Program-made: the position numbers and the translations under genes
The notes under the pieces: generated by a model
Told to the model about the DNA's origin: nothing
The model's database searches: none
The model's input: only the letters and a program-made list of their open reading frames with translations
Shown here: piece by piece, positions 19,464 to 30,691 of the stretch
Layout: every line of letters starts with the position of its first letter
How positions within the stretch are numbered: the first letter of the stretch is position 1
Source of the DNA: Fidelibacterota bacterium
Lineage (GTDB): Bacteria > Fidelibacterota > Marinisomatia > SCGC-AAA003-L08 > D37C17
Reading direction: 5' to 3'
Assembly (NCBI GenBank): GCA_002717625.1
Contig: PBEF01000004.1
Span: 4,146-68,145 of the forward strand
DNA: 64,000 nt

Positions 19464-20579
19464 TCATTCAATCCCTAAAATATAATTAACCATAGCAACA
19501 ACATCAACAACATTAACTATACCATCAGCATTAATATCTGCATATGTATACTGGCATGTCCCATCATCTACATTAGCTAATTCATCAAAATTAATAGCAT
19601 ATTCATAAGTACATCCAAAATTAATAAATGAAGAATATTGACATGTAGCATTATCTCCATCTCCAAGTAAATCTGCTATAGGGTTGTAATTAAAGGCTAT
19701 AGGATCTGAACAGTTAGCTCCAGACATGCAATGATCTCCCATCCAATAACAGTTCTGACTATTCATACAATCTAATTGATTATCAAAATCCATACATCCA
19801 TCATTTGTTTCCATACAATGATCTCCCATCCACATACATCCAGAGATGGCCATACAATCTAATTGATTAAGAGCATCATCACATAAGTCACAATCATCTC
19901 CATACAAACATAAAGCATCATCATAAACAGCAGTTATATCATAATTACAAGCATTACTATCAGTACATCCATACATAGAATTAATTAGAGAAGGTATATA
20001 AGTATATTGAAAATCATATAAATTAGGCATATCAAATAAATATCTTACAACCATATGATGATCAATAAAAGCATATGCTGAATAAGTTGATCCCGCAAAC
20101 ATATTCCATATATCATGATTAGGATCACAATCTAGGATTAATGGGTTATTACCATAATCACCAAGTTCAGTATATAATTCTGCCCATCCACTACAAGAAT
20201 AAAGGTCTGATTCATTAGAACTATAATCAAGACTAATTAAAAACTCTAAATTTTCATATTCATCTACAACTTCAATAAGTTGATCCATCAAACTGACGTA
20301 ATCATAACAAGCAGGTCACCAAGTTGCATTCATACTAATAAGAGTTATTTTATAATCTCCTCCATTAATATTACCATTGTAGTCAGAAAAAGAAAATGTA
20401 CTTCCTGTTTCATAACTACCTGAGCCATTACATACAGAAAAGAATAAATTCTGATCCTCTATACTCAAAGTATCTCCAGGACTATAAAAAGATCTATTAT
20501 AAGGAACACTCTCAACTGGACAAACTAATTCATCAGGAAATAAAAAAGAGAAAAACAAGAAGAATAAAAGGTATAACAT
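19464..20579 (-). CDS. Selenoprotein: exported thioredoxin-fold protein (WUPAC motif) with Cys-rich repeats and dockerin-like end
   Basis: Read through an in-frame TGA at 20316-20318 (codon 88), the gene encodes 371 residues. Signal peptide about 1-15. A thioredoxin-like domain (about 65-200) holds MNATW-U-PACYDYV, so TGA replaces the first Cys of the WCxxC redox motif (U88, C91). Next come Cys-rich units: GCTDSNACNYD, two copies of an LDCM-x5-C-x-WMGDHCM unit, and GCTYEYAINFDELANVDDGTC, then a single dockerin-like loop ADINADGIVNVVDVV. ATG at 20579 follows the upstream selenoprotein gene by 11 bases, so they form one operon. Read as ordinary stops, the gene would be two fragments, neither with a complete redox motif. 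Confidence 0.85.
20278..20294 (-). promoter_or_regulatory. Candidate bacterial SECIS hairpin (WUPAC gene)
   Basis: Starting 21 bases after the TGA at 20316-20318, AGTT (20294-20291) pairs with AACT (20281-20278), a single T (20290) is bulged, GA pairs with TC, and the apical loop is TGGA. The loop begins 28 bases after the TGA. A bulged U and a G-containing small loop at this distance are features of known bacterial SECIS elements. The stem is short (6 pairs), so the assignment is moderate. Confidence 0.5.
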
Positions 20580-20590
20580 GAGTTAAGAGC

Positions 20591-21256
20591 TTAACTCAAT
20601 ATCATATTAACAAGCTGTATAACATCTAATACATTAATAGTACCATCAAAATTCAAATCTGCTGCAGAATCAGTTTGGTTGCCAAGAATCATATTAACCA
20701 ATAAAATAATATCTTGTATATTAACTACAGAATCTACATTTATATCACCTAATAAAGACTGTTCATAATGCTCTTCTAAGATTCCTCTAATATAATTTTT
20801 CAAAGTATTGTTAACAACATTTGCATTCATACTACCTAAATAGCTTCCATCATAGTCTAAAATGACTACTGATTTATGCTCACCATACGGTGAAAATTGT
20901 TCTCTAATTGGAAGACTTGGGTATGGATCCATTACAAGAGGCAAATCAGAGTTTGCACAAAATGTATCATTAAAACTACTAATATTTGACGTGCCAACAG
21001 CTATAAAAACAACATTTTCATAACCATCTTCACTCCTTAATTCTTCTTGAAAATTGGACAACTGCCCAAATGCACTTGTTCATCCCGCTCATCCTTGAGA
21101 AGAAAAAAAATGAATCGTTATATAATCTAAATACTGAGGAAGCCAAACATCTAGACCATAAGTAGGCGATGTTGTATTGTAATCTTGAGAAGAGTACATA
21201 TAATCATCACAAATACCAATTGATAAAACAAACAATATAATTAAGATTTTCTTCAT
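20591..21256 (-). CDS. Selenoprotein: exported thioredoxin-like protein with UxxU motif and dockerin-like tail
   Basis: Frame from ATG 21256 to TAA at 20591 with two TGA codons at 21089-21091 and 21080-21082 (codons 56 and 59), giving 221 residues. Signal peptide about 1-16 (MKKILIILFVLSIGIC). The domain reads YITIHFFSSQG-U-A-G-U-TSAFG followed by GYENVVFIAVGTSN, a thioredoxin beta-alpha-beta pattern in which both CxxC positions are TGA. From memory the layout resembles the SelP N-terminal domain and the diselenide UxxU motif of SelL. It ends with two dockerin-like loops (GDINVDSVVNIQDII, ADLNFDGTINVLDVI). First gene of the selenoprotein pair; the downstream gene starts 11 bases after its stop. 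Confidence 0.85.
21058..21079 (-). promoter_or_regulatory. Candidate bacterial SECIS hairpin (UxxU gene)
   Basis: ACAAGTGC (21079-21072) pairs with GCAGTTGT (21065-21058) with one G/G mismatch, enclosing the loop ATTTGG. The loop begins 17 bases after the first TGA (21089-21091) and 8 bases after the second. One element could serve both codons or only the first. It has GG in the apical loop, as in bacterial SECIS elements. Confidence 0.5.
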
Positions 21257-21329: not shown

Positions 21330-21752
21330 TTAATTTTCTTTCAACATTTTTTCTACCTCTAAAACATGTAATTCTTCTTGTCCTATCATAGTTCTAGCAT
21401 ATTCTTCTAAATAAACAGATTTACCATCAATCAAAGATAATAAATCATAATAGACCTGTATAGCTTTTTTCTCATGGTCTAAAGTCTCTTTTAAAATGTC
21501 CTGAATATTATGCTTATAGCTCTCTTTTATATTATCAATTCCTAAAGGAGGATGACCACCTAAACCAGTAATGTATTCACCTGCTAAATTTGCATGAGCT
21601 AATGATTCAGAAGCCTGAGATTTAAAAAAATCAATAAGAGGCAATCTATTATAACCAAATATCATTAAAGAGTAATGTGTATATCTAATAACTCCTGAAA
21701 GCTCCAAAGTAAAAATTTCACTTAATTTTTTTACAATCTTTTTTTTATCCAT
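21330..21752 (-). CDS. Ferritin-like / bacterioferritin-type diiron protein
   Basis: 140 residues, all helical. Glutamate and histidine residues are placed as in a four-helix ferritin-like fold: LELSGVIRYTHY (helix A), SQASESLAHANLAGEY (helix B), LKETLDHEKKAI (helix C) and MIGQEELHVLEVEKML (helix D with E-x-x-H). Such proteins store iron or carry out diiron oxidation; subunits of bacterioferritin type are slightly longer (about 155). It is a single gene on the minus strand with AAAGTAAATCTCC just upstream (GGAGAT in sense) as ribosome binding site. Confidence 0.72.
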   Translation of the reverse strand: MDKKKIVKKLSEIFTLELSGVIRYTHYSLMIFGYNRLPLIDFFKSQASESLAHANLAGEYITGLGGHPPLGIDNIKESYKHNIQDILKETLDHEKKAIQVYYDLLSLIDGKSVYLEEYARTMIGQEELHVLEVEKMLKEN

Positions 21753-21802
21753 AAAGTAAATCTCCTAAATATTAACATAAGTTAAATTACAAATAACAAA
21801 AT

Positions 21803-21837
21803 AAAAAAGCCTCTATAAAAGAGGCTTTTTTATTTTT
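21803..21837 (-). terminator. GCCTCT-family intrinsic terminator
   Basis: AAAAAAGCCTCT, loop ATAAA, AGAGGCTTTTT. On the minus strand it follows the Cys-rich repeat gene (21901-23157) and precedes the ferritin-like gene. The hairpin core is identical to that at 19413. Confidence 0.85.
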
Positions 21838-21900
21838 AACTTATAAGAAATTGAGTTATAAACTCTATCTCTTATTGAGGGAGAGTTAAAAAATTAGCTA

Positions 21901-23157
21901 CTAATCATTTAATATAATATTAACAACAAACACAACATCAGTTACATTAAGGATACCATCAAAATTACAATCAAAATCACATAAATCCTCAGGTTGCCCT
22001 CCAGATAAAATTGTATCAATCATAACTATAATATCCGTTACATTAATATTGCCATCATTATTAGCATCACCTGTACCACATTCAGGACAAGATGCATTCC
22101 AATATGGATTCATTTCATCATTAGGCATTACCCACATTTGAGTAGCACCATCACATGCACCAAATGAAACTTCATGTGTAACATAGTCATAACAATAACC
22201 TGATTGACAATCACCACAGTCATCTACCATAGCATCACCACCAGGAACGCCATTACAGTCTGATTCAGAACAATCGTTTGGACAGGTATAATAATTTTCA
22301 TCTTCACTACAAATTCCATCACCACAACCATCAGTACAAGAAGCATTCCAATATGGATTAGAAGGGGAATTAGGATCAACCCACATCTCCATAGCTCCAT
22401 CACAATCGCCAAATGAAACCTCATGTGTAACATAGTCATAACAGTAACCTGATTGACAATCACCACAATCATCGATCATTGCTGAACCACCACAATCACC
22501 ATTGCAGTCTTCTGTAGCATCACCACCCCAAGTACCATTACAGTCTTGTGAGCAAGATCCGTTCCAATATGGATTTGATGGAGAATCAGGATCTACCCAC
22601 ATTTGAGTAGCACCATCACATGCGCCAAATGAAACTTCATGTGTAACATAGTCATAACAATAACCTGATTGACAATCACCACAGTCATCTAGCATAGCAT
22701 CACCATTAGCAACACCATTGCAGTCTGTTGTGCAATTTGAATTCCAGTAGGGATTAGAAGGATGATCAGGAGAATAATAATTATATCCATAGCCTTCACA
22801 TTCATCAATTGATAAATCATAGTAAACACTATGAGCAGGATCACCATTTAAACCAGGACTAAAAAATGAATAGCAAAAACTACTCCAACAATGGCCACAA
22901 TCATCTGCCATATAATTACCAGGACAGTTACCATCAGAATAACTATTCCAATATGGATCTCCTTCTGACCCTGGAATAACCCACATTTCTGTTGGGCCTG
23001 TACAATCTACTTCATCCGTATCATATGATACAGCATGAGATACATAATCATAACAATATGGCATCCAACATGTTCCATTGTCATCTTCATAAAATCCATC
23101 TGGACAAGCAGCAAAGATGAATCCAGTTAACATAAAAATATTTATTATTTTCTTCAT
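21901..23157 (-). CDS. Exported Cys-rich tandem-repeat protein with dockerin-like tail
   Basis: 418 residues with signal peptide (about 1-17, ending FAACPDG). The body consists of four or five Cys- and Trp-rich units whose core is DDCGDCQSGYCYDYVTHEVS then F-G-x-CDGAxxMWV-P-x4-NPYWN-xxC; three are nearly identical, implying recent duplication. A C-terminal pair of dockerin-like loops (GDANNDGNINVTDII, DFDCNFDGILNVTDVV) follows. No enzymatic motif. The many acidic residues suggest calcium or metal binding on the cell surface. Fur-like and TTTCGA-type sites lie in the 150 bases upstream, linking it to the iron/heme group. Confidence 0.72.
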   Translation of the reverse strand: MKKIINIFMLTGFIFAACPDGFYEDDNGTCWMPYCYDYVSHAVSYDTDEVDCTGPTEMWVIPGSEGDPYWNSYSDGNCPGNYMADDCGHCWSSFCYSFFSPGLNGDPAHSVYYDLSIDECEGYGYNYYSPDHPSNPYWNSNCTTDCNGVANGDAMLDDCGDCQSGYCYDYVTHEVSFGACDGATQMWVDPDSPSNPYWNGSCSQDCNGTWGGDATEDCNGDCGGSAMIDDCGDCQSGYCYDYVTHEVSFGDCDGAMEMWVDPNSPSNPYWNASCTDGCGDGICSEDENYYTCPNDCSESDCNGVPGGDAMVDDCGDCQSGYCYDYVTHEVSFGACDGATQMWVMPNDEMNPYWNASCPECGTGDANNDGNINVTDIIVMIDTILSGGQPEDLCDFDCNFDGILNVTDVVFVVNIILND

Positions 23158-23190
23158 TTTAAAGTTCCTTTGTTTAACATTTACATATAA

Positions 23191-23205
23191 TGAGAATGAA
23201 TCTCA
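23191..23205 (-). promoter_or_regulatory. Fur-like box upstream of the Cys-rich repeat gene
   Basis: TGAGAATGAATCTCA is a 7-1-7 inverted repeat with one mismatched pair, close to the perfect TGAGAATGATTCTCA before the porin. It lies 34 bases upstream of the ATG at 23157, a position compatible with repression. Confidence 0.5.
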
Positions 23206-23246
23206 GATAGGTAAATTAAAAAAGAACTAAAATTAAATGCAATAAC

Positions 23247-23270
23247 TATTTCGAATCATTAGTCGAAATA
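23247..23270 (-). promoter_or_regulatory. 24-bp palindromic operator, copy 1
   Basis: TATTTCGA, 8 bases, TCGAAATA: perfect 8-bp arms. It lies about 90 bases upstream of the Cys-rich repeat gene and just after the HmuY-like stop. Read on the minus strand it closely matches the site at 30733-30756 (TATTTCGACTA...ATTCGAA). Confidence 0.55.
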
Positions 23271-23304
23271 TGAAATAATGAGGTTTTATTTAGATTTTTT
23301 AAAG

Positions 23305-24087
23305 CTATTCTCCAAGTATAAAGCCTACAAGACCTACAATATCAACAACATTAACGATACTATCTTCATTGTAATCAAATAAGCATATATCATCTGAAAA
23401 TGATGGATCTGATAATATAAAGTTAACAGTAGAAACAACATCAACCACATTAATTATTCCATCATCATTGGTATCTCCAGGAATTCCAAAGCATTGATCA
23501 GCATCAGGATTATCTATTCCTACCTGATAACGAATTGAAACATTTCCACCTGAACCATTAGCATAATAATTATAGGCCCAAAACTTAACAATATCCTGAC
23601 CGTTAGCAGCTTTAACAAACATAACATAATTAGTAGGATTAAGAACATAGGTTTCATCAAACCATCCCCATGAATTAAGAGCAGGGTTTTTAATGCCTTC
23701 AACAAAAGTATGAGTAGTAAGATCATAAAAATCATTATGGATACCATCTTCTAGCCAATTAACACCACTACCATAATCAGGCACTTCATTTAATTCTGTC
23801 CAATGATCAATCCATGTATAAGCTCCTGAATCTAAAGTCCCTACAGAATCAACAATGGCACCTCCATATCCGGGACCAGAAAGCCCACTATTAGTTTTAA
23901 TATGCTTCCTCTGAAAAGCTAAATCCCACTCAAGAGAACTTTCAGGATAATCAACTAAAACTACGCTATGAGTTGAGAATGAATAATAAACCCAATCTGA
24001 ATAACTAGTGGCTGGTATTGTTACAAAATATTCTTCTTGAGCATACAGTACACAACATAATAACATAATTATACTATTTTTCATCAT
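23305..24087 (-). CDS. hmuY: HmuY-like heme-binding protein with dockerin-like tail
   Basis: 260 residues with signal peptide (about 1-16, ending LYAQ). The body matches the HmuY family: YYSFSTHSVV, SLEWDLAFQRKHIKTNSG, GPGYGGA and NGQDIVKFWAYNYY. HmuY of Porphyromonas is a surface or secreted hemophore that passes heme to the receptor HmuR. Here the family domain (about 20-195) is joined to two dockerin-like loops (PGDTNDDGIINVVDVV and DYNEDSIVNVVDIV), which is not part of classical HmuY. The gene lies 17 bases downstream of the TonB-dependent receptor and is part of the same heme operon. Confidence 0.82.
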   Translation of the reverse strand: MMKNSIIMLLCCVLYAQEEYFVTIPATSYSDWVYYSFSTHSVVLVDYPESSLEWDLAFQRKHIKTNSGLSGPGYGGAIVDSVGTLDSGAYTWIDHWTELNEVPDYGSGVNWLEDGIHNDFYDLTTHTFVEGIKNPALNSWGWFDETYVLNPTNYVMFVKAANGQDIVKFWAYNYYANGSGGNVSIRYQVGIDNPDADQCFGIPGDTNDDGIINVVDVVSTVNFILSDPSFSDDICLFDYNEDSIVNVVDIVGLVGFILGE

Positions 24088-24104
24088 AATATTCCCACTC
24101 CTAT

Positions 24105-26420
24105 TTACTTGAATTTTAAATCAATTCCAACTACAAATCTTCCACCAGGATCATATGCCGATAAAAGATCTTTTTCATAACTATCACTTAAAAATCTCCT
24201 ATCATCTTTATAGTGGAATAAGTTTTTATAACCAAATTTTAAACCTACATAATCATTAATTTTAATTTTTGCAAGCGCATCTGCCATAATATAATCTTCC
24301 AACGTTATAATATCATCACCATCATAAATAATCTTATCTCCTGAATATTTCATGTTAACAGATATATTAAATTTATTTTTTATAACTTTATATGAATAAT
24401 TCAAAGCTAAAGAATGTTCAGATATAAGCTCTAATGCCTCTTTATTATCAGACTCTGGATGAGTATAATTATACACAAACTTTATATTATTTTTATCGTT
24501 AAGAAGACTTTCATAATGACAATTGATACCATAAAAAATGACTGAACTAAAATTACTATAAAGTAAAATATTATTATCAAATTCATCAACAGTAGACTTA
24601 ACGCCTATCAAATTCTTTATATCATTATAAAATAATTCAAATGAATAATTTTTATCTAAATCTTTTTTATCAAAAGAAATAGAGAAAAAATCATTAGTAG
24701 TTGGTTCTAAATCAGGGTTGCCAATCACAGGAGGGCTATGACCTTGAAAATTATAATACAATTCTTTAATAGCGGGAGTTCTAAATCCCTTGCTATAATT
24801 AAACCTTACATCATGTAGGCGAGTTGAATTATTAGTAAACAAATAGGCCATTGAATAAACCAGATTATCTGTATAGTTTTCAGATTTAACCTTCCTAATA
24901 GAAACAGAAAATATATTATCATTATCTAAACTTATTTGATTACCTATAAAAAATGCCTTTTTACTAAATTGCTTAATTCCATTTTGACTATTAAATATAG
25001 ACTCAACTAAACAATCATCTATATCATCTCCACACTCACCATCATTATTCACATCTCCCAAATCATACTTATATATATTAAAAGATGCATATTCATCATC
25101 ATTTTTTTCAAAACCAAAAGTTAAATTATGGGCATTAAACTGAAAGTCATATTGAACTAAAAGGCTTTCATTTGTATTAGTCGCATTTAAAAATTCAGCC
25201 TCAATTAAATTATCTGGATTATTACAGTCAGTTAAAGAACAAGACTCATATGAATAATTGAAAAAATGACTGTTTTTTCTATACTCCTCAAAATTATAAA
25301 AAACTTTGAATGTTGACTCTTCATTCTTATTAAGAAACTTGAAACCATACCTATTATCTTTAAATCTAGGAGAGTTATTTTTATAAGTTTTATAATAAGA
25401 GAATGGATTCTGACAACCCATTTGACAAAGATGACTTTCATATTGATATATTTCATTCGAATAATCTTTAACATTTAGCTCAACAGAGGTATTTTCTGAA
25501 AAATTATAGGTAAAACCATGCTTAACTGATATAGTCTTATACGCTTCTAATGTTTTAATCAAAGGACCCATAACATTATTCTCAAGTGGAGTTAAATCAT
25601 AGCCATCAGATTCTTTTTTATCTATATTAATATTATAATGTATATTTTTATAGTTAAGTCCAAATGCTAATGACTGTGAAATCACCATTGGGTCTTCATT
25701 TAAATAGGATATATCTAGCCAATAAGGATTCTGCTTTTTCTTTGTTATAATATTTACAACTCCGCCTATTGCACTTGATCCATACAAACTAGACATTCCT
25801 CCTTCTACAATTTCAATTTTATCTACATCTGATAAATTCAACATATTAAAATCTAAATTGCCTGCAAACTCACCAGAAACCCTTGCTCCATCTATAAGGA
25901 ATAAAATATATTTATTATCTAAACCCTGAATTTTGACTCTATTATTACTAGTCCCTGCATGACTTGAGACTACATTTTGAACATTGGGTAATTTCATTTC
26001 TAAAATATCTTTAACATTAGTATAGGTTGTATTTGATATATCATTAGAATTAATAACATGAGTTAAAACGGGAGTATCTTTAACATAAGCTTCTTTTCTT
26101 AATCCTGTAACTAATATACGATCTAACTCTACAGGAGTTTCAAAAAGTATTATTTCATATAACTCATCAGAAGAATAATCAATGGGCGTAATACTATCTT
26201 CATATCCTATATGAGAAACTTTAACTGAAAATTCTTTTTCTAAGATAGAATCAATAATGAAATAACCATCTTCATCTGTTAAGGTAGAAGAATTTTTCAT
26301 ATCAACAATTTGAACGTTAGCATTCTTAATAGGATTGTCAGAAACATCTACAACCTGACCTTTAAATGGACCTATTGCGCATAATGCTGATAAAAATAAT
26401 AATTTAAGTATATAATTCAT
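24105..26420 (-). CDS. hmuR: TonB-dependent heme receptor (HmuR-like)
   Basis: About 771 residues from ATG 26420 (a TTG seven codons upstream is less likely because the signal peptide MNYILKLLFLSALCAIG starts here). A CarboxypepD-regulatory-like domain (about 20-95) precedes the plug with VKIQGLDNKYILFLIDG and EIVEGGMSSLYGSSAIGGVV, then a 22-strand-type barrel with NPDLEPTTNDFFS and a terminal aromatic-rich strand. It probably imports heme delivered by the adjacent HmuY-like protein. An acidic loop DLGDVNNDGECGDDIDD (about residue 450) is an extra calcium-loop-like insertion in an extracellular position. A half copy of the TTTCGACTA operator lies just before the start. Confidence 0.88.
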   Translation of the reverse strand: MNYILKLLFLSALCAIGPFKGQVVDVSDNPIKNANVQIVDMKNSSTLTDEDGYFIIDSILEKEFSVKVSHIGYEDSITPIDYSSDELYEIILFETPVELDRILVTGLRKEAYVKDTPVLTHVINSNDISNTTYTNVKDILEMKLPNVQNVVSSHAGTSNNRVKIQGLDNKYILFLIDGARVSGEFAGNLDFNMLNLSDVDKIEIVEGGMSSLYGSSAIGGVVNIITKKKQNPYWLDISYLNEDPMVISQSLAFGLNYKNIHYNINIDKKESDGYDLTPLENNVMGPLIKTLEAYKTISVKHGFTYNFSENTSVELNVKDYSNEIYQYESHLCQMGCQNPFSYYKTYKNNSPRFKDNRYGFKFLNKNEESTFKVFYNFEEYRKNSHFFNYSYESCSLTDCNNPDNLIEAEFLNATNTNESLLVQYDFQFNAHNLTFGFEKNDDEYASFNIYKYDLGDVNNDGECGDDIDDCLVESIFNSQNGIKQFSKKAFFIGNQISLDNDNIFSVSIRKVKSENYTDNLVYSMAYLFTNNSTRLHDVRFNYSKGFRTPAIKELYYNFQGHSPPVIGNPDLEPTTNDFFSISFDKKDLDKNYSFELFYNDIKNLIGVKSTVDEFDNNILLYSNFSSVIFYGINCHYESLLNDKNNIKFVYNYTHPESDNKEALELISEHSLALNYSYKVIKNKFNISVNMKYSGDKIIYDGDDIITLEDYIMADALAKIKINDYVGLKFGYKNLFHYKDDRRFLSDSYEKDLLSAYDPGGRFVVGIDLKFK

Positions 26421-26445
26421 AGCGTTAATATAATATACCAACTAG

Positions 26446-26457
26446 TTAGTCGAAAAG
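26446..26457 (-). promoter_or_regulatory. Half-site of the TTTCGACTAA operator before the heme receptor
   Basis: On the minus strand CTTTTCGACTAA matches one arm and spacer of the 24-bp operators at 23247 and 30733; the second arm is poorly conserved. It sits 26 bases upstream of the hmuR ATG. Confidence 0.35.
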
Positions 26458-26483
26458 TAAAATCATTTAAATTATTTTAAAAA

Positions 26484-26996
26484 CTACTTTTTCTCCGTAT
26501 GGCCCTTATCATTCAAATGTTTAATCTTATTTAAGCTAGGACCAACGAGCCTAAAGGCTCTTCCAAAACCATGAACTAAGAGTCCATCAGTAGGAGTCAA
26601 TTTAAATAAATGGAAATCAGTAAGATTTTTAAGAAAAGATAATTGTTCTTTAAACTTATTTTCTAATAATTGTATTTTTTGATTCCAATCTGAGCTATCC
26701 CTTATAATCTCTTCAGATTTCCCATTCATAGTCAACCTTCTTCTTGCGAATAAATTTTCAGCCTTAGACTCATCTTCAATAATCATTAAAGAAACCTTAT
26801 CATTATTAAGTAAATTTTGAGTATGCTTAGATAGCTCACTTATATAAATATAAAAACTACCATCTTCATCTGAAGCTACCGGAGCATAACTTGAATTCGG
26901 GACCCCCTCAACATCAACGGTACTCAAAATAACACTATCCATTTCTTTAAGTATTTTTTCTTTTTCCTTTATTGCTTTTGATAATTTTTCATCCAT
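26484..26996 (-). CDS. hugZ: HugZ/HutZ-like heme utilisation protein (FMN-binding split barrel)
   Basis: 170 residues with the split-barrel pattern MDSVILSTVDVEGVPNSSYA, SELSKHTQNLLNNDKVSLMI, IEDESKAENLFARRRLTMNG and a C-terminal LLVHGFGRAFRLVG. These are characteristic of the HugZ/HutZ branch of the pyridoxamine-oxidase-like superfamily, which binds and degrades heme rather than flavin. Its place between the receptor and the heme ABC transporter genes supports a role in releasing iron from heme in the cytoplasm. HmuS is also encoded, so two heme-handling cytoplasmic proteins are present. ATG at 26996. Confidence 0.82.
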   Translation of the reverse strand: MDEKLSKAIKEKEKILKEMDSVILSTVDVEGVPNSSYAPVASDEDGSFYIYISELSKHTQNLLNNDKVSLMIIEDESKAENLFARRRLTMNGKSEEIIRDSSDWNQKIQLLENKFKEQLSFLKNLTDFHLFKLTPTDGLLVHGFGRAFRLVGPSLNKIKHLNDKGHTEKK

Positions 26997-27036
26997 TATT
27001 ATACCCCCTCTAGTATAGTTTATGTTAATTATCTCA

Positions 27037-27825
27037 CTAATATGTTACAAACATTCTATCTGACTCTTCATTTTTTATTAATTTTAATTTTACATCAAAA
27101 ACTTCTTCTAATTTTTCAGTATCAATTATTTTATTTGTGCGTTCATATGATACTAACTTTGCCTGTTTCAACATTATGATTTTATTTGAGTTTATTATAG
27201 CCTGATTTAAATCATGTAAAACCATAACGATAGTCAACCCTTTTTTATTCATAGATTTAAGAAAACCAAACAAGCAACATTGATGATTAATATCTAAATA
27301 CGAAGTTGGCTCATCAATAATCAAAACTCTATTATCATAATTATTATCTGACCATATCTGCGAGAAAACTCTTGCTAATTGGACTCTTTGTTTTTCTCCA
27401 CCTGATAAGGTCATATAATTCTGATCAATATGTGAGCTTAAATCAAATACCTCTAAAATCTTCTTACATATCAATTCATTTTCAGAACTAGTACTATCTT
27501 TTATTGGATATCTACCCATTTTAACTATATCTAATACAGAAAATGGAAAAGCTAAATAATTTGATTGCGGTAAAACAGATCTGTAATAAGCTAATTCCGA
27601 AGAACTCCAATCATCAATTTTAATATTATTAAAAAAAACATTTCCTGATGTAACACTTAATTCACCTGTAATCAACTTAATAAGAGTGCTCTTGCCTGAA
27701 CCATTAGGACCAATAATACTTACCATATCACCATTATTAACACTGAAAGATATATCCTCTATTAACAATTTATTATTAATAGAATAATTAACAGAATCTA
27801 ATTTTATTAATGTTTTATTCTGCAT
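27037..27825 (-). CDS. hmuV: Heme ABC transporter ATP-binding protein HmuV
   Basis: 262 residues. Walker A GPNGSGKST (39-47), Q-loop LPQSNY (85-90), signature LSGGEKQR (140-147), Walker B VLIIDEP (167-173) and a switch His in MVLHDLN. The family is the FecE/HmuV type that powers siderophore and heme import. It overlaps the end of hmuU by 11 bases, so the two subunits are translationally coupled. Confidence 0.92.
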   Translation of the reverse strand: MQNKTLIKLDSVNYSINNKLLIEDISFSVNNGDMVSIIGPNGSGKSTLIKLITGELSVTSGNVFFNNIKIDDWSSSELAYYRSVLPQSNYLAFPFSVLDIVKMGRYPIKDSTSSENELICKKILEVFDLSSHIDQNYMTLSGGEKQRVQLARVFSQIWSDNNYDNRVLIIDEPTSYLDINHQCCLFGFLKSMNKKGLTIVMVLHDLNQAIINSNKIIMLKQAKLVSYERTNKIIDTEKLEEVFDVKLKLIKNEESDRMFVTY

Positions 27826-28876
27826 AATTAAACCTTCTTTTTTGACTTAAAATCAGCCATACAAAAAATGGAGCTCCTATAGCTGAAGTAACAACACCAA
27901 TAGGCAATTGAGCTGGGGATATTATGGTTTTTGAAATCAAATCAGATAAAACAAGTAATATTGCCCCCAATATAGCTGACCCTGGAATTAAATATCGATG
28001 ATTAGGACCAATAAATAAACGTATTAGGTGAGGTGTTACAAGGCCTATAAATCCAATCATCCCACAAAAGGAGACAGATACTCCAACTACGATTGAAGAT
28101 ATTAATATAATTTTCTTTTTCAATGATTCAACATTTACACCCAAATGTTCAGATTCAGCATCTCCAAGCATAAAAATATCCATCTGATATTGCAATTTAT
28201 AAACAATTAAAAAGGGTATGACTATAAATAAACTAACTATACCTACAATATTCCAATCAGCCATATCTAATCCACCCAAAGTCCAAAATGTAAAACTGCG
28301 TAGTTCTGTATCTGAAGACATACTAACAAATAACCCTATAATTGAGCCAGATAAGGCGTTAATTGCTATTCCAGATAATAACATAGCCATAATATTTGTC
28401 TTATTAGAAACTTTTGACATTTTATAAACCATCATTGTAGTTACAAAAGCACCCATCATAGCTAAAATAGGTAAAATAAATGGAGATAACATAGCAGGAA
28501 GATATAAATAAATATGATGAGAAAACATAATGGCAACCATAGCGCCAATAGCACCACCACTAGACACTCCAATAAACCCAGGATCAACAAGAGGGTTCCT
28601 GAACAAACCTTGTAAAATTGCACCAGCAGTACCCAAACCCAATCCTACTAAAATAGCCATAATTATCCTTGGAAGCCTAATATCTAATAAGACAGATTCA
28701 TGAATTTTAGAAAAAGTATAGCTTTCAGATAAAATTCCAATTTTATATAAAACAATATCACTTATCTGATTTAATGTTATTTCAACTGGCCCAAATGTAA
28801 TAGAAAATAAAGATAAAGCTATCAAGGACATCATCATTAAAACTAATAAATAACTTTTATAATAAATATTATTCAT
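27815..28876 (-). CDS. hmuU: Heme ABC transporter permease HmuU (FecCD family)
   Basis: About 353 residues from ATG 28876 (MNNIYYKSYLLVL); an upstream in-frame TTG at 28891 is less likely. About ten membrane segments and family motifs: LDIRLPRIIMAILVGLGLG, GAILQGLFRNPLVDPGFIGV, GLVTPHLIRLFIGPNHR and the C-terminal GAPFFVWLI. It forms the membrane channel with HmuV and receives heme from HmuT. The start lies inside the end of hmuT (8-base overlap). Confidence 0.92.
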   Translation of the reverse strand: MNNIYYKSYLLVLMMMSLIALSLFSITFGPVEITLNQISDIVLYKIGILSESYTFSKIHESVLLDIRLPRIIMAILVGLGLGTAGAILQGLFRNPLVDPGFIGVSSGGAIGAMVAIMFSHHIYLYLPAMLSPFILPILAMMGAFVTTMMVYKMSKVSNKTNIMAMLLSGIAINALSGSIIGLFVSMSSDTELRSFTFWTLGGLDMADWNIVGIVSLFIVIPFLIVYKLQYQMDIFMLGDAESEHLGVNVESLKKKIILISSIVVGVSVSFCGMIGFIGLVTPHLIRLFIGPNHRYLIPGSAILGAILLVLSDLISKTIISPAQLPIGVVTSAIGAPFFVWLILSQKRRFNYAE

Positions 28877-29714
28877 CTTCGATACTAACAACTTTCATCA
28901 ACGATAATACATGGTTAACAAAATTAGGACCGAAAGTCAAATACTTACCCATATCTAAATAAATGATTTTCTCATTAGAAACAGCGGATACACTTTTAAA
29001 TGCTGGATTAGTTAAAAACACTGAATCAGAAAGCTTAGAATCAGATCTAATACTCCCAACTAAAATTATATCAGGATTTAAATTTATAATTTCTTCACTA
29101 GTTACCTTTTTATATCTACTGAACCCTGATTTAAAAATATTACTTCCACCTAAAAATTCAATTAAATAATCAGCTCTCGTATCTACTCCTGCTGCATTAT
29201 ATGAATTAGATGTTGGATTCATAAAAAAAGCTATTTTTGGTATATGCTTTCTATCGCTTTTTATTTTATCTATTTGATTTTTAACAGACTTCATCTGATT
29301 TTTAATACTATCACCTCTTGAGCTTAAATCTAAATATTCAGCTATTTGATCAACAAGATTTAATATCTCATCAAAACTATGAGGAGATTTAAAAATTTCT
29401 AAACTAACTCCGCTGTCTTGAATTTGCTCAACTACCTTTTTAGGACCCATATCAGTTGTTGTTAAAATTTTAGTAGGCATCATAGATAATATGCCCTCAC
29501 TAGATATAGCTCTTATATATCCCACCTGGGGCAATTCTTTTACTTCAATTGGAGCAGTGCTAGATTGATCAACAGCAACCACAAAACCTCCTGCTCCTAA
29601 TTCAAATACAGTTTCAGTAACACAACCTCCAATAGTAATCATCCTTTCCTTGGAAGCAGATGATACTAGACCTATAAGTATAATTAAAATTAATATAATT
29701 TTATTCTTAATCAT
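28869..29714 (-). CDS. hmuT: Periplasmic heme-binding protein HmuT
   Basis: 281 residues with signal peptide (about 1-19, ending VSSAS). The substrate-binding fold of the TroA/FhuD-like class shows in MITIGGCVTETVFELGAG, AVDQSSTAP, QVGYIRAISSEGILSM and DIILVGSIRSDS, with the long linking helix in the middle. It shuttles heme from the outer membrane receptor to HmuUV. ATG at 29714 overlaps the TGA stop of hmuS by 4 bases. Confidence 0.9.
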   Translation of the reverse strand: MIKNKIILILIILIGLVSSASKERMITIGGCVTETVFELGAGGFVVAVDQSSTAPIEVKELPQVGYIRAISSEGILSMMPTKILTTTDMGPKKVVEQIQDSGVSLEIFKSPHSFDEILNLVDQIAEYLDLSSRGDSIKNQMKSVKNQIDKIKSDRKHIPKIAFFMNPTSNSYNAAGVDTRADYLIEFLGGSNIFKSGFSRYKKVTSEEIINLNPDIILVGSIRSDSKLSDSVFLTNPAFKSVSAVSNEKIIYLDMGKYLTFGPNFVNHVLSLMKVVSIEDE

Positions 29715-30691
29715 TTATTACTCCTTATATAATCATTTACTATATCATTAAAATCATCTTCATAATTTTCAACTGGACATAAACCAAGCACATTATTATT
29801 ATCAATATCAAAAAAGTCAACAACAAACAAAAAATTTCCAGCATCCATATATTCACTAACTACTGCACTTGTAATTTTAGATTCAAAAATATGAATATTA
29901 AATTTTTTATCAATTACATTAATCCATGGACCAAAATCAACAACATTCTTAATTTTACCTTTATAATATTGTATAACAGTCTCTCCAAAGGCATGAATTT
30001 GTATTGGATTTTTTCTACTAGAGCTATTCTCTAAAAGATACCTTAGCACATCACCCTTTATATCAATTTTCTTATTTAAACTAAATTTTAGAGTCAAATC
30101 ATAATCTGTTTTAACTAAAGAAATATCACCCTTTTTAATACTATTGCTAAAATCATTAGATTTATTTTTTTGAATAGCATAATCATACTCGCATTTATGC
30201 TTATCTGCAATCTGATCAAAGCAGGAAAACGCCTTACCTTTTAAATAAATTTTAAGTATGGCATTACCATTTACATCAAATATCTGGAAACTTTTAAGTT
30301 CTTTTCCTGCATGCGTTTTTTGCTCAAAAAAGACATAATGAAATAAATGAGAATCAAATCTAACAATAGGAAAATCTTTATCAATATAGATAAAACTGTT
30401 ATCTTTTATATCTATATCAGATGTATTAACAATAACTTCATGAACTACATAATTACTCCGAATTAAAAACATCAACCTATCAGCATCTAGAAGATCCTTA
30501 AAAAACAAATTATACTTTTCAATTTTCAAATAAAACACATTATCACCAACTTCAGTACTTAGTAATTCTGCCTCGCTAACATTTAATTGATTAGCAGCAT
30601 CTCTAATGCGTATTTTTTTATTTTTTGGATCAGCTTTAAAACTATTCCATGCAGACTTAATTCTACTTAACTGTTCGATATAACTATTCAT
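29711..30691 (-). CDS. hmuS: Hemin-degrading factor HmuS/ChuS-like
   Basis: 326 residues with the two-half layout of the HmuS/ChuS family. The N-terminal half opens with RIKSAWNSFKADPKNKKIRI RDAANQLNVSEAELLSTEVG in order, and the C-terminal half has IQIHAFGETVIQYYKGKI and WINVIDKKFNIHIFESKI. The family binds heme in the cytoplasm and opens it to release iron, or acts as a heme chaperone. It is the first gene of the heme operon hmuS-hmuT-hmuU-hmuV-hugZ-hmuR-hmuY. Its promoter region holds a degenerate Fur-like box (30705-30719) and the palindromic operator (30733-30756). Ends in TGA. Confidence 0.88.
   Translation of the reverse strand: MNSYIEQLSRIKSAWNSFKADPKNKKIRIRDAANQLNVSEAELLSTEVGDNVFYLKIEKYNLFFKDLLDADRLMFLIRSNYVVHEVIVNTSDIDIKDNSFIYIDKDFPIVRFDSHLFHYVFFEQKTHAGKELKSFQIFDVNGNAILKIYLKGKAFSCFDQIADKHKCEYDYAIQKNKSNDFSNSIKKGDISLVKTDYDLTLKFSLNKKIDIKGDVLRYLLENSSSRKNPIQIHAFGETVIQYYKGKIKNVVDFGPWINVIDKKFNIHIFESKITSAVVSEYMDAGNFLFVVDFFDIDNNNVLGLCPVENYEDDFNDIVNDYIRSNK

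Follow-up and report, generated by a model that had tools for sequence, protein, structure and literature searches.

A putative exported thioredoxin-fold selenoprotein with a UxxU motif and a dockerin-type tail in Fidelibacterota

The two-UGA gene and the adjoining WUPxC gene

The window analysed here is a stretch of 64,000 nucleotides from a Fidelibacterota bacterium, whose genome is a metagenome-assembled genome (MAG) of 23 contigs (1.49 Mb, 89.7% complete). On its minus strand lies a gene of 221 residues closed by TAA, and the only internal in-frame stops are two TGA codons. A sequence-only reading had reported that two TGA codons occupy both CxxC positions of a thioredoxin-like domain in an open frame, which proved correct for codons 56 and 59. 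The interval that it gave, 20591-21256 in forward-strand numbering, also stands; the gene itself is on the minus strand and is read from 21256 to 20591. A second putative selenoprotein gene lies immediately downstream. The features of the locus are as follows.

20591..21256, minus strand: putative dual-selenocysteine (Sec) protein with a predicted thioredoxin fold, 221 aa, TAA stop (translation through two TGA codons)
21209..21256, minus strand: signal-peptide-like N-terminus, about residues 1-16 (K-K and a hydrophobic run)
21089..21091, minus strand: UGA1, putative Sec56, N-terminal redox position (translation, conservation)
21080..21082, minus strand: UGA2, putative Sec59, C-terminal redox position (translation, conservation)
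21054..21069, minus strand: putative SECIS hairpin, stem UUGGGC/GUCCAA, loop AGUU (pairing in 26 sequences)
20768..21121, minus strand: predicted thioredoxin/ResA-like domain, residues 46-163 (AlphaFold2 model, Foldseek)
20597..20752, minus strand: dockerin type I tail, residues 169-220 (PF00404, E=5e-7)
19464..20579, minus strand: putative TlpA/redoxin-like selenoprotein with W-U-P-A-C and a dockerin-like end, 371 aa (two ORFs joined over a TGA)
20316..20318, minus strand: UGA of the partner (W-U-P-A-C)
20286..20298, minus strand: candidate partner SECIS, loop AGUUU, 21 nt after the UGA (folds in several orthologues)

The N-terminus of the protein (MKKILIILFVLSIGIC) resembles a signal peptide, as had been suggested; its helix (residues 2-14) was modelled at low pLDDT. 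The AlphaFold2 model, computed from a 25-sequence family alignment, has a pLDDT of 86.5 and shows a strand (46-53), Sec56 and Sec59, a helix (59-75), and then the usual order of thioredoxin elements. The thioredoxin-like domain of the sequence-only reading is thus predicted with good confidence. The redox motif is Q-G-U-A-G-U-T, with U56-A-G-U59 at the start of helix 1; both TGA codons map to the β1/α1 junction. Among solved structures, Foldseek ranked ResA first (1su9; 14% identity, TM-score by target 0.76); next came TlpA/DsbE-like proteins, GPX4 and peroxiredoxins. Pfam gave a sub-threshold match to Thioredoxin_8 for the domain; the calcium-loop tail proposed earlier was recovered as Dockerin_1 (PF00404) above the Pfam cut-off. 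A tblastn search of the gene product found no match in phages, and Foldseek against viral proteins returned generic thioredoxin/GPX matches only. Gene callers split such genes, as had been anticipated: the table-11 ORF list contains only a 156-aa fragment of this gene, starting 3' of the second TGA, and the partner appears there as two ORFs.

The partner is encoded by ORFs 20579-20316 and 20315-19464, joined over one TGA, and begins 11 nt downstream of the UxxU gene. It showed weak redoxin/AhpC matches and the start of a dockerin; no NCBIfam model matched it, and its AlphaFold2 model is weak (pLDDT 66). Its candidate hairpin has a C-AGUUU-G apex and folds in several of 13 orthologues. The two genes adjoin in 13 loci (the window and 12 others), and the TGA of the partner is kept in all 13. 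The intergenic gap is mostly 0-18 nt; two loci with an uncertain start codon have 89 nt and a small overlap. Many UxxU loci, including that of a second UxxU copy in the host genome, lack an adjacent WUPxC gene, and the pairing is therefore not obligatory; the UxxU genes occur in two genomic contexts. That second copy (L053:7350-8012, minus strand; C4:75352-76008) is about 69% identical to the window gene, carries both TGA codons and lies near a contig end.

Conservation of the motif and of the hairpin

Each of the 22 best matches, one of which is the gene of the window itself, has exactly two in-frame TGA codons in a full-length frame, so the double TGA is not due to chance. The own gene matched at 99% identity, and the relatives and paralogues at about 48-70%; the named relatives with homologues are Candidatus Neomarinimicrobiota MAGs. 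A search of 245 genomes of the phylum found the redox family in 67, each full-length match having one or two TGA codons; no full-length homologue free of TGA was found among the 245. The few TGA-free matches in this search are all partial and start at or after the motif; in one of them (G001:C40, L112) the contig ends just before its U. Only Sec or Cys occurs at the positions of codons 56 and 59 in the homologues, with Cys at 59 in the single-Sec group; unrelated residues, which had been named as evidence against a selenoprotein, did not occur there.

Three subfamilies were recognized: A (QG-UxGU-T, two Sec), which includes the window protein, B (GWx-UxGU-R, two Sec) and C (GHx-UxxC-xR, one Sec). 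In the unrooted maximum-likelihood tree a branch sets each of them apart from the rest (A and B starred; C 89/62), so that a single event, in which the second Sec was either gained or lost, is sufficient. Two side observations concern single loci and codons. A near-identical UxxU gene (f1 form) with its partner is present in G160 (L074/L121), which belongs to a different family; this might be a recent transfer or MAG contamination. The Gly codon before UGA2 (21085-21083 in the window) is GGA in the window and GGC in 19 of the 22 group A genes. GGC is unusual there for a genome of 29% GC, and a decoding-context effect is possible.

A hairpin test was performed on 26 UxxU sequences aligned without gaps from UGA1. 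Columns 23-28 and 33-38 form a hairpin of six pairs, which was paired in 100% of cells (26/26 sequences); none of 500 shuffles reached this value, and slid versions paired in 17-51%. Three of the pairs show compensatory change, with 24 cells altered on both sides. For example, the stem and loop read UUGGGC-AGUU-GUCCAA in the window, UUGUGC-AGUU-GCACAA in L056 and L038, and UCAUAC-AGUU-GUGUGA in L063. The loop codons CAG-TTG were invariant in 28 of 28 distinct sequences, which are related, so that this count is no probability. Elsewhere in the same genes CAG makes up 20% of the Gln codons and TTG 10% of the Leu codons; the next Gln codon (+14) is CAA throughout group A.

In the window, the AGUU loop starts 16 nt 3' of UGA2 and 25 nt 3' of UGA1. 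The published model of the bacterial SECIS has a stem of 4-16 bp, a distance of 16-37 nt from the UGA and a minimum free energy of at most -7.5 kcal/mol (PMC13188914). The conserved hairpin fits this model in its loop, its stem (6 bp) and both spacings; the energies of the core hairpin are -6.5 (window), -8.3 (L030), -6.9 (L056) and -7.2 kcal/mol (L062), against the limit of -7.5. Both UGA codons fall inside the 16-37 nt range, and one hairpin may therefore serve both. We infer that the conserved hairpin at 21069-21054 is a SECIS positioned to direct both Sec insertions.

The sequence-only reading had pointed to a hairpin with GG in its loop after the second TGA and to 21040-21095 as the region to fold. 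That hairpin exists in the window sequence, where, taken alone, it is slightly more stable than the conserved one (-7.6 vs -6.5 kcal/mol). It overlaps the conserved hairpin, was paired in 62.9% of cells across the UxxU genes, and was rejected as the SECIS; what the region does hold is the AGUU hairpin. Neither of the other two hairpins examined close to the UGA codons was conserved across the UxxU genes.

The single-Sec (UxxC) genes have a hairpin of their own. Its columns (16-19 with 25-28, loop GGUUC) were paired in 77.4% of cells in 21 sequences, a value that 0 of 500 shuffles matched; RNAalifold alone gave no structure for this set, and the hairpin there rests on the pair counts. The two hairpins are not interchangeable: the UxxU hairpin was paired in 46.8% of cells on the single-Sec genes, no better than shuffled sequences, and the single-Sec hairpin in 34% on the UxxU genes. 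The loop RGUU is common to both, whereas its position is shifted by three codons, R-F (CGG TTC) vs Q-L (CAG TTG). The loop of the single-Sec hairpin likewise lies 16 nt 3' of the only UGA. Since both loops stand 16 nt after the last UGA, the SECIS is shifted in register with that codon. The simplest reading would be that the last UGA to be decoded fixes the place of the hairpin, which also serves the first UGA at longer range.

The host genome encodes the machinery for Sec. A tRNA-Sec with anticodon tca (65.8 bits, cut-off 47), SelB (330 bits), SelA adjoining SelB (507 bits) and SelD (376 bits) were detected; the absence of selB and selC, named beforehand as an argument against the selenoprotein, was thus not observed, and selA, selB, selC and selD are all present, as is an in-frame UGA at a Cys position of homologues. 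The frame of SelD itself crosses a TGA: at L104 2460-2300 (minus strand; C21 of the same genome) it occurs as G-U-A-C, and 3' of it lies a candidate hairpin UUACUC...GAGUAA. Of 36 long frames in the window, 7 end in TGA, a count that includes the internal TGA of the partner gene. It is therefore a normal stop within the window and the host is not a TGA=Trp genome; TGA as a genome-wide sense codon was rejected.

Genomic context and rival explanations

Many secreted proteins of the window end in dockerin-type tails, including an esterase, an amylase, HmuY and others. The host genome contains 83 dockerin-type matches and one cohesin match. The type I domain of a cellulosomal dockerin was found, and a scaffoldin with several cohesins was not found in this genome; the tail may have no classical partner. 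The genome also encodes the type IX secretion system (T9SS) translocon protein SprA and 13 sorting tails above the cut-off. In L069, a member of the redox family, a T9SS sorting tail (TIGR04183, above the cut-off) replaces the dockerin, and several single-Sec members of another family (f13) have similar-looking tails. A surface role of the dockerin-type tail is suggested by the T9SS sorting tail at the corresponding position of a relative; in this clade it would serve as a tag for sorting to the surface or for attachment there, and not as a cellulosome plug.

Upstream of the UxxU gene and on the same strand is a haem uptake and storage cluster (21330-30691, minus strand). It encodes HemS, a binding protein, an FecCD permease, an ABC ATPase, a PNPOx-like protein, a TonB receptor, HmuY with a dockerin tail and a ferritin-like protein. 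This arrangement (30691 to 21330), which includes an HmuTUV-like transporter, might suggest that the UxxU protein belongs to the haem system and acts at the surface as a reductase of haem or iron. However, HmuY, the TonB receptor and ferritin lie beside the UxxU gene in none of 24 relative loci; a haem function was set aside because the adjacency is not conserved, and we regard it as quite improbable. It might also be asked whether the TGA codons are nonsense mutations or sequencing errors in a pseudogene or a misassembled gene, as the window is from a draft MAG. This can practically be dismissed: about 20 independent genomes share both codons at this position in an otherwise intact frame, the paralogue L053 of the host genome also has both, and the RNA hairpin is conserved. 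Reading of the UGA codons as Cys or Trp instead of Sec is very improbable, in view of the full Sec machinery, the SECIS hairpin and the normal use of UGA as a stop elsewhere.

A rival that carries some weight, although we consider it unlikely, is that only one Sec is inserted efficiently. UGA1 would then be mainly a stop or poorly read, yielding mostly a short peptide and little full-length protein. The spacing of UGA2 is that of the single-Sec sister family, and the spacing of UGA1 is longer, which would agree with such a view. However, 25 nt is inside the reported range (PMC13188914), the partner loop lies at 21 nt and the SelD candidate at >30 nt from the UGA, and no member of the UxxU clades has a sense codon in place of UGA1. 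The reading that we favour, and hold to be probable, is a genuine exported dual-Sec selenoprotein with one hairpin for both UGA codons, a surface tail, a diselenide and an oxidoreductase role together with the WUPxC partner. The motif, the RNA signal and the gene pair are evident in the sequences.

The course of events in this favoured reading may be outlined. SelB with Sec-tRNA would bind the single hairpin, placed for UGA2, and UGA1, at 25 nt from the loop, would be decoded before UGA2, at 16 nt. The protein would be exported by its signal peptide, and the dockerin-type tail would sort or attach it at the cell surface. A reversible diselenide could form between Sec56 and Sec59. The protein might act outside the cytoplasm as a thiol/peroxide oxidoreductase, with the downstream WUPxC selenoprotein as its electron donor or acceptor. 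Sec insertion, the diselenide, export and its route, the substrate, electron flow and the partnership are all proposed from comparison of sequences. The most detailed version has the SECIS three codons apart in the one-UGA and two-UGA forms, a single hairpin decoding two UGAs successively, a tail-sorted extracellular diselenide oxidoreductase paired with WUPxC, and UxxU in two subfamilies; taken as a whole, we hold and doubt it in equal measure.

If so, uncultured marine bacteria would carry exported, selenium-rich redox proteins on the cell surface; diselenides, being harder to over-oxidise, could be useful there. The use of one bacterial SECIS for two nearby UGA codons has been little explored, as far as we found. 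With two UxxU clades, one UxxC clade and a hairpin in two registers, the spacing rule is testable in a reporter.

Comparison with known systems

UxxU in a thioredoxin-like fold is shared with SelL, which was reportedly described by Shchedrina in 2007 as a Prx-like protein of thioredoxin fold with a UxxU diselenide motif and one SECIS for two UGAs. The window protein differs in being predicted as exported with a sorting tail. As proposed beforehand, the SelL and SelP families were searched. The SelL-related model NF040769 did not match the window protein at E 0.01 and matched 2 of 36 family members (best E=0.0019), so membership was rejected and SelL is regarded as a look-alike; SelP_N (PF04592) gave weak matches in 2 of 36 members (E=0.027).

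A closer relative is NF053656 (redoxin_TUGYCR), which has the same fold and is homologous over residues 22-149. It matched all 36 family members, and the single-Sec relatives approach or exceed its cut-off (L068 with 103 bits); the window protein scored 67.4 bits over the full length and 69 bits for the domain, and did not reach the cut-off of 100. The motif of the model is T-U-G-Y-C-R (UxxC), whereas that of the window protein is UxxU, with the SECIS shifted by three codons. The ‘Prx-like 2’ family from the GOS data was described in 2008 as marine and thioredoxin-like, with low similarity to SelP_N, with UxxC and with several UxxU members (PMC2398784). It is likened to the window family by this description; the parts of that paper available to us do not describe genomes, a tail, an operon or the SECIS register. 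Prx-like oxidoreductases with UxxC or UxxU are also listed in recent reviews (PMC9312934, PMC13188914). The earlier impression that an exported bacterial UxxU protein is a rarity needs to be qualified accordingly: it belongs to a clade-wide family and UxxU was known by 2008, whereas the putatively exported and tagged version is a new variant.

No relevant paper on a selenoprotein with a dockerin, or on Marinimicrobia with dockerins, was found in the open literature, nor were genomic UxxU clades, a SECIS registered to UGA2, the selenoprotein pair or the tail swap found described there. The thiol-disulfide oxidoreductases of the ResA/TlpA family are the closest solved fold; they are exported and have CxxC at the same place, whereas the window protein has Sec at both positions, a dockerin tail and no ResA sequence signature. 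A dockerin-like tail of this kind also closes the model of the already named Omp28-related selenoprotein (NF045500, GOS_C), but the catalytic domain there is a different one and the motif is UxxC. Compared with these systems, double-Sec sites were known already; what is new is the putatively exported, tagged and paired version, together with the spacing of its hairpin.
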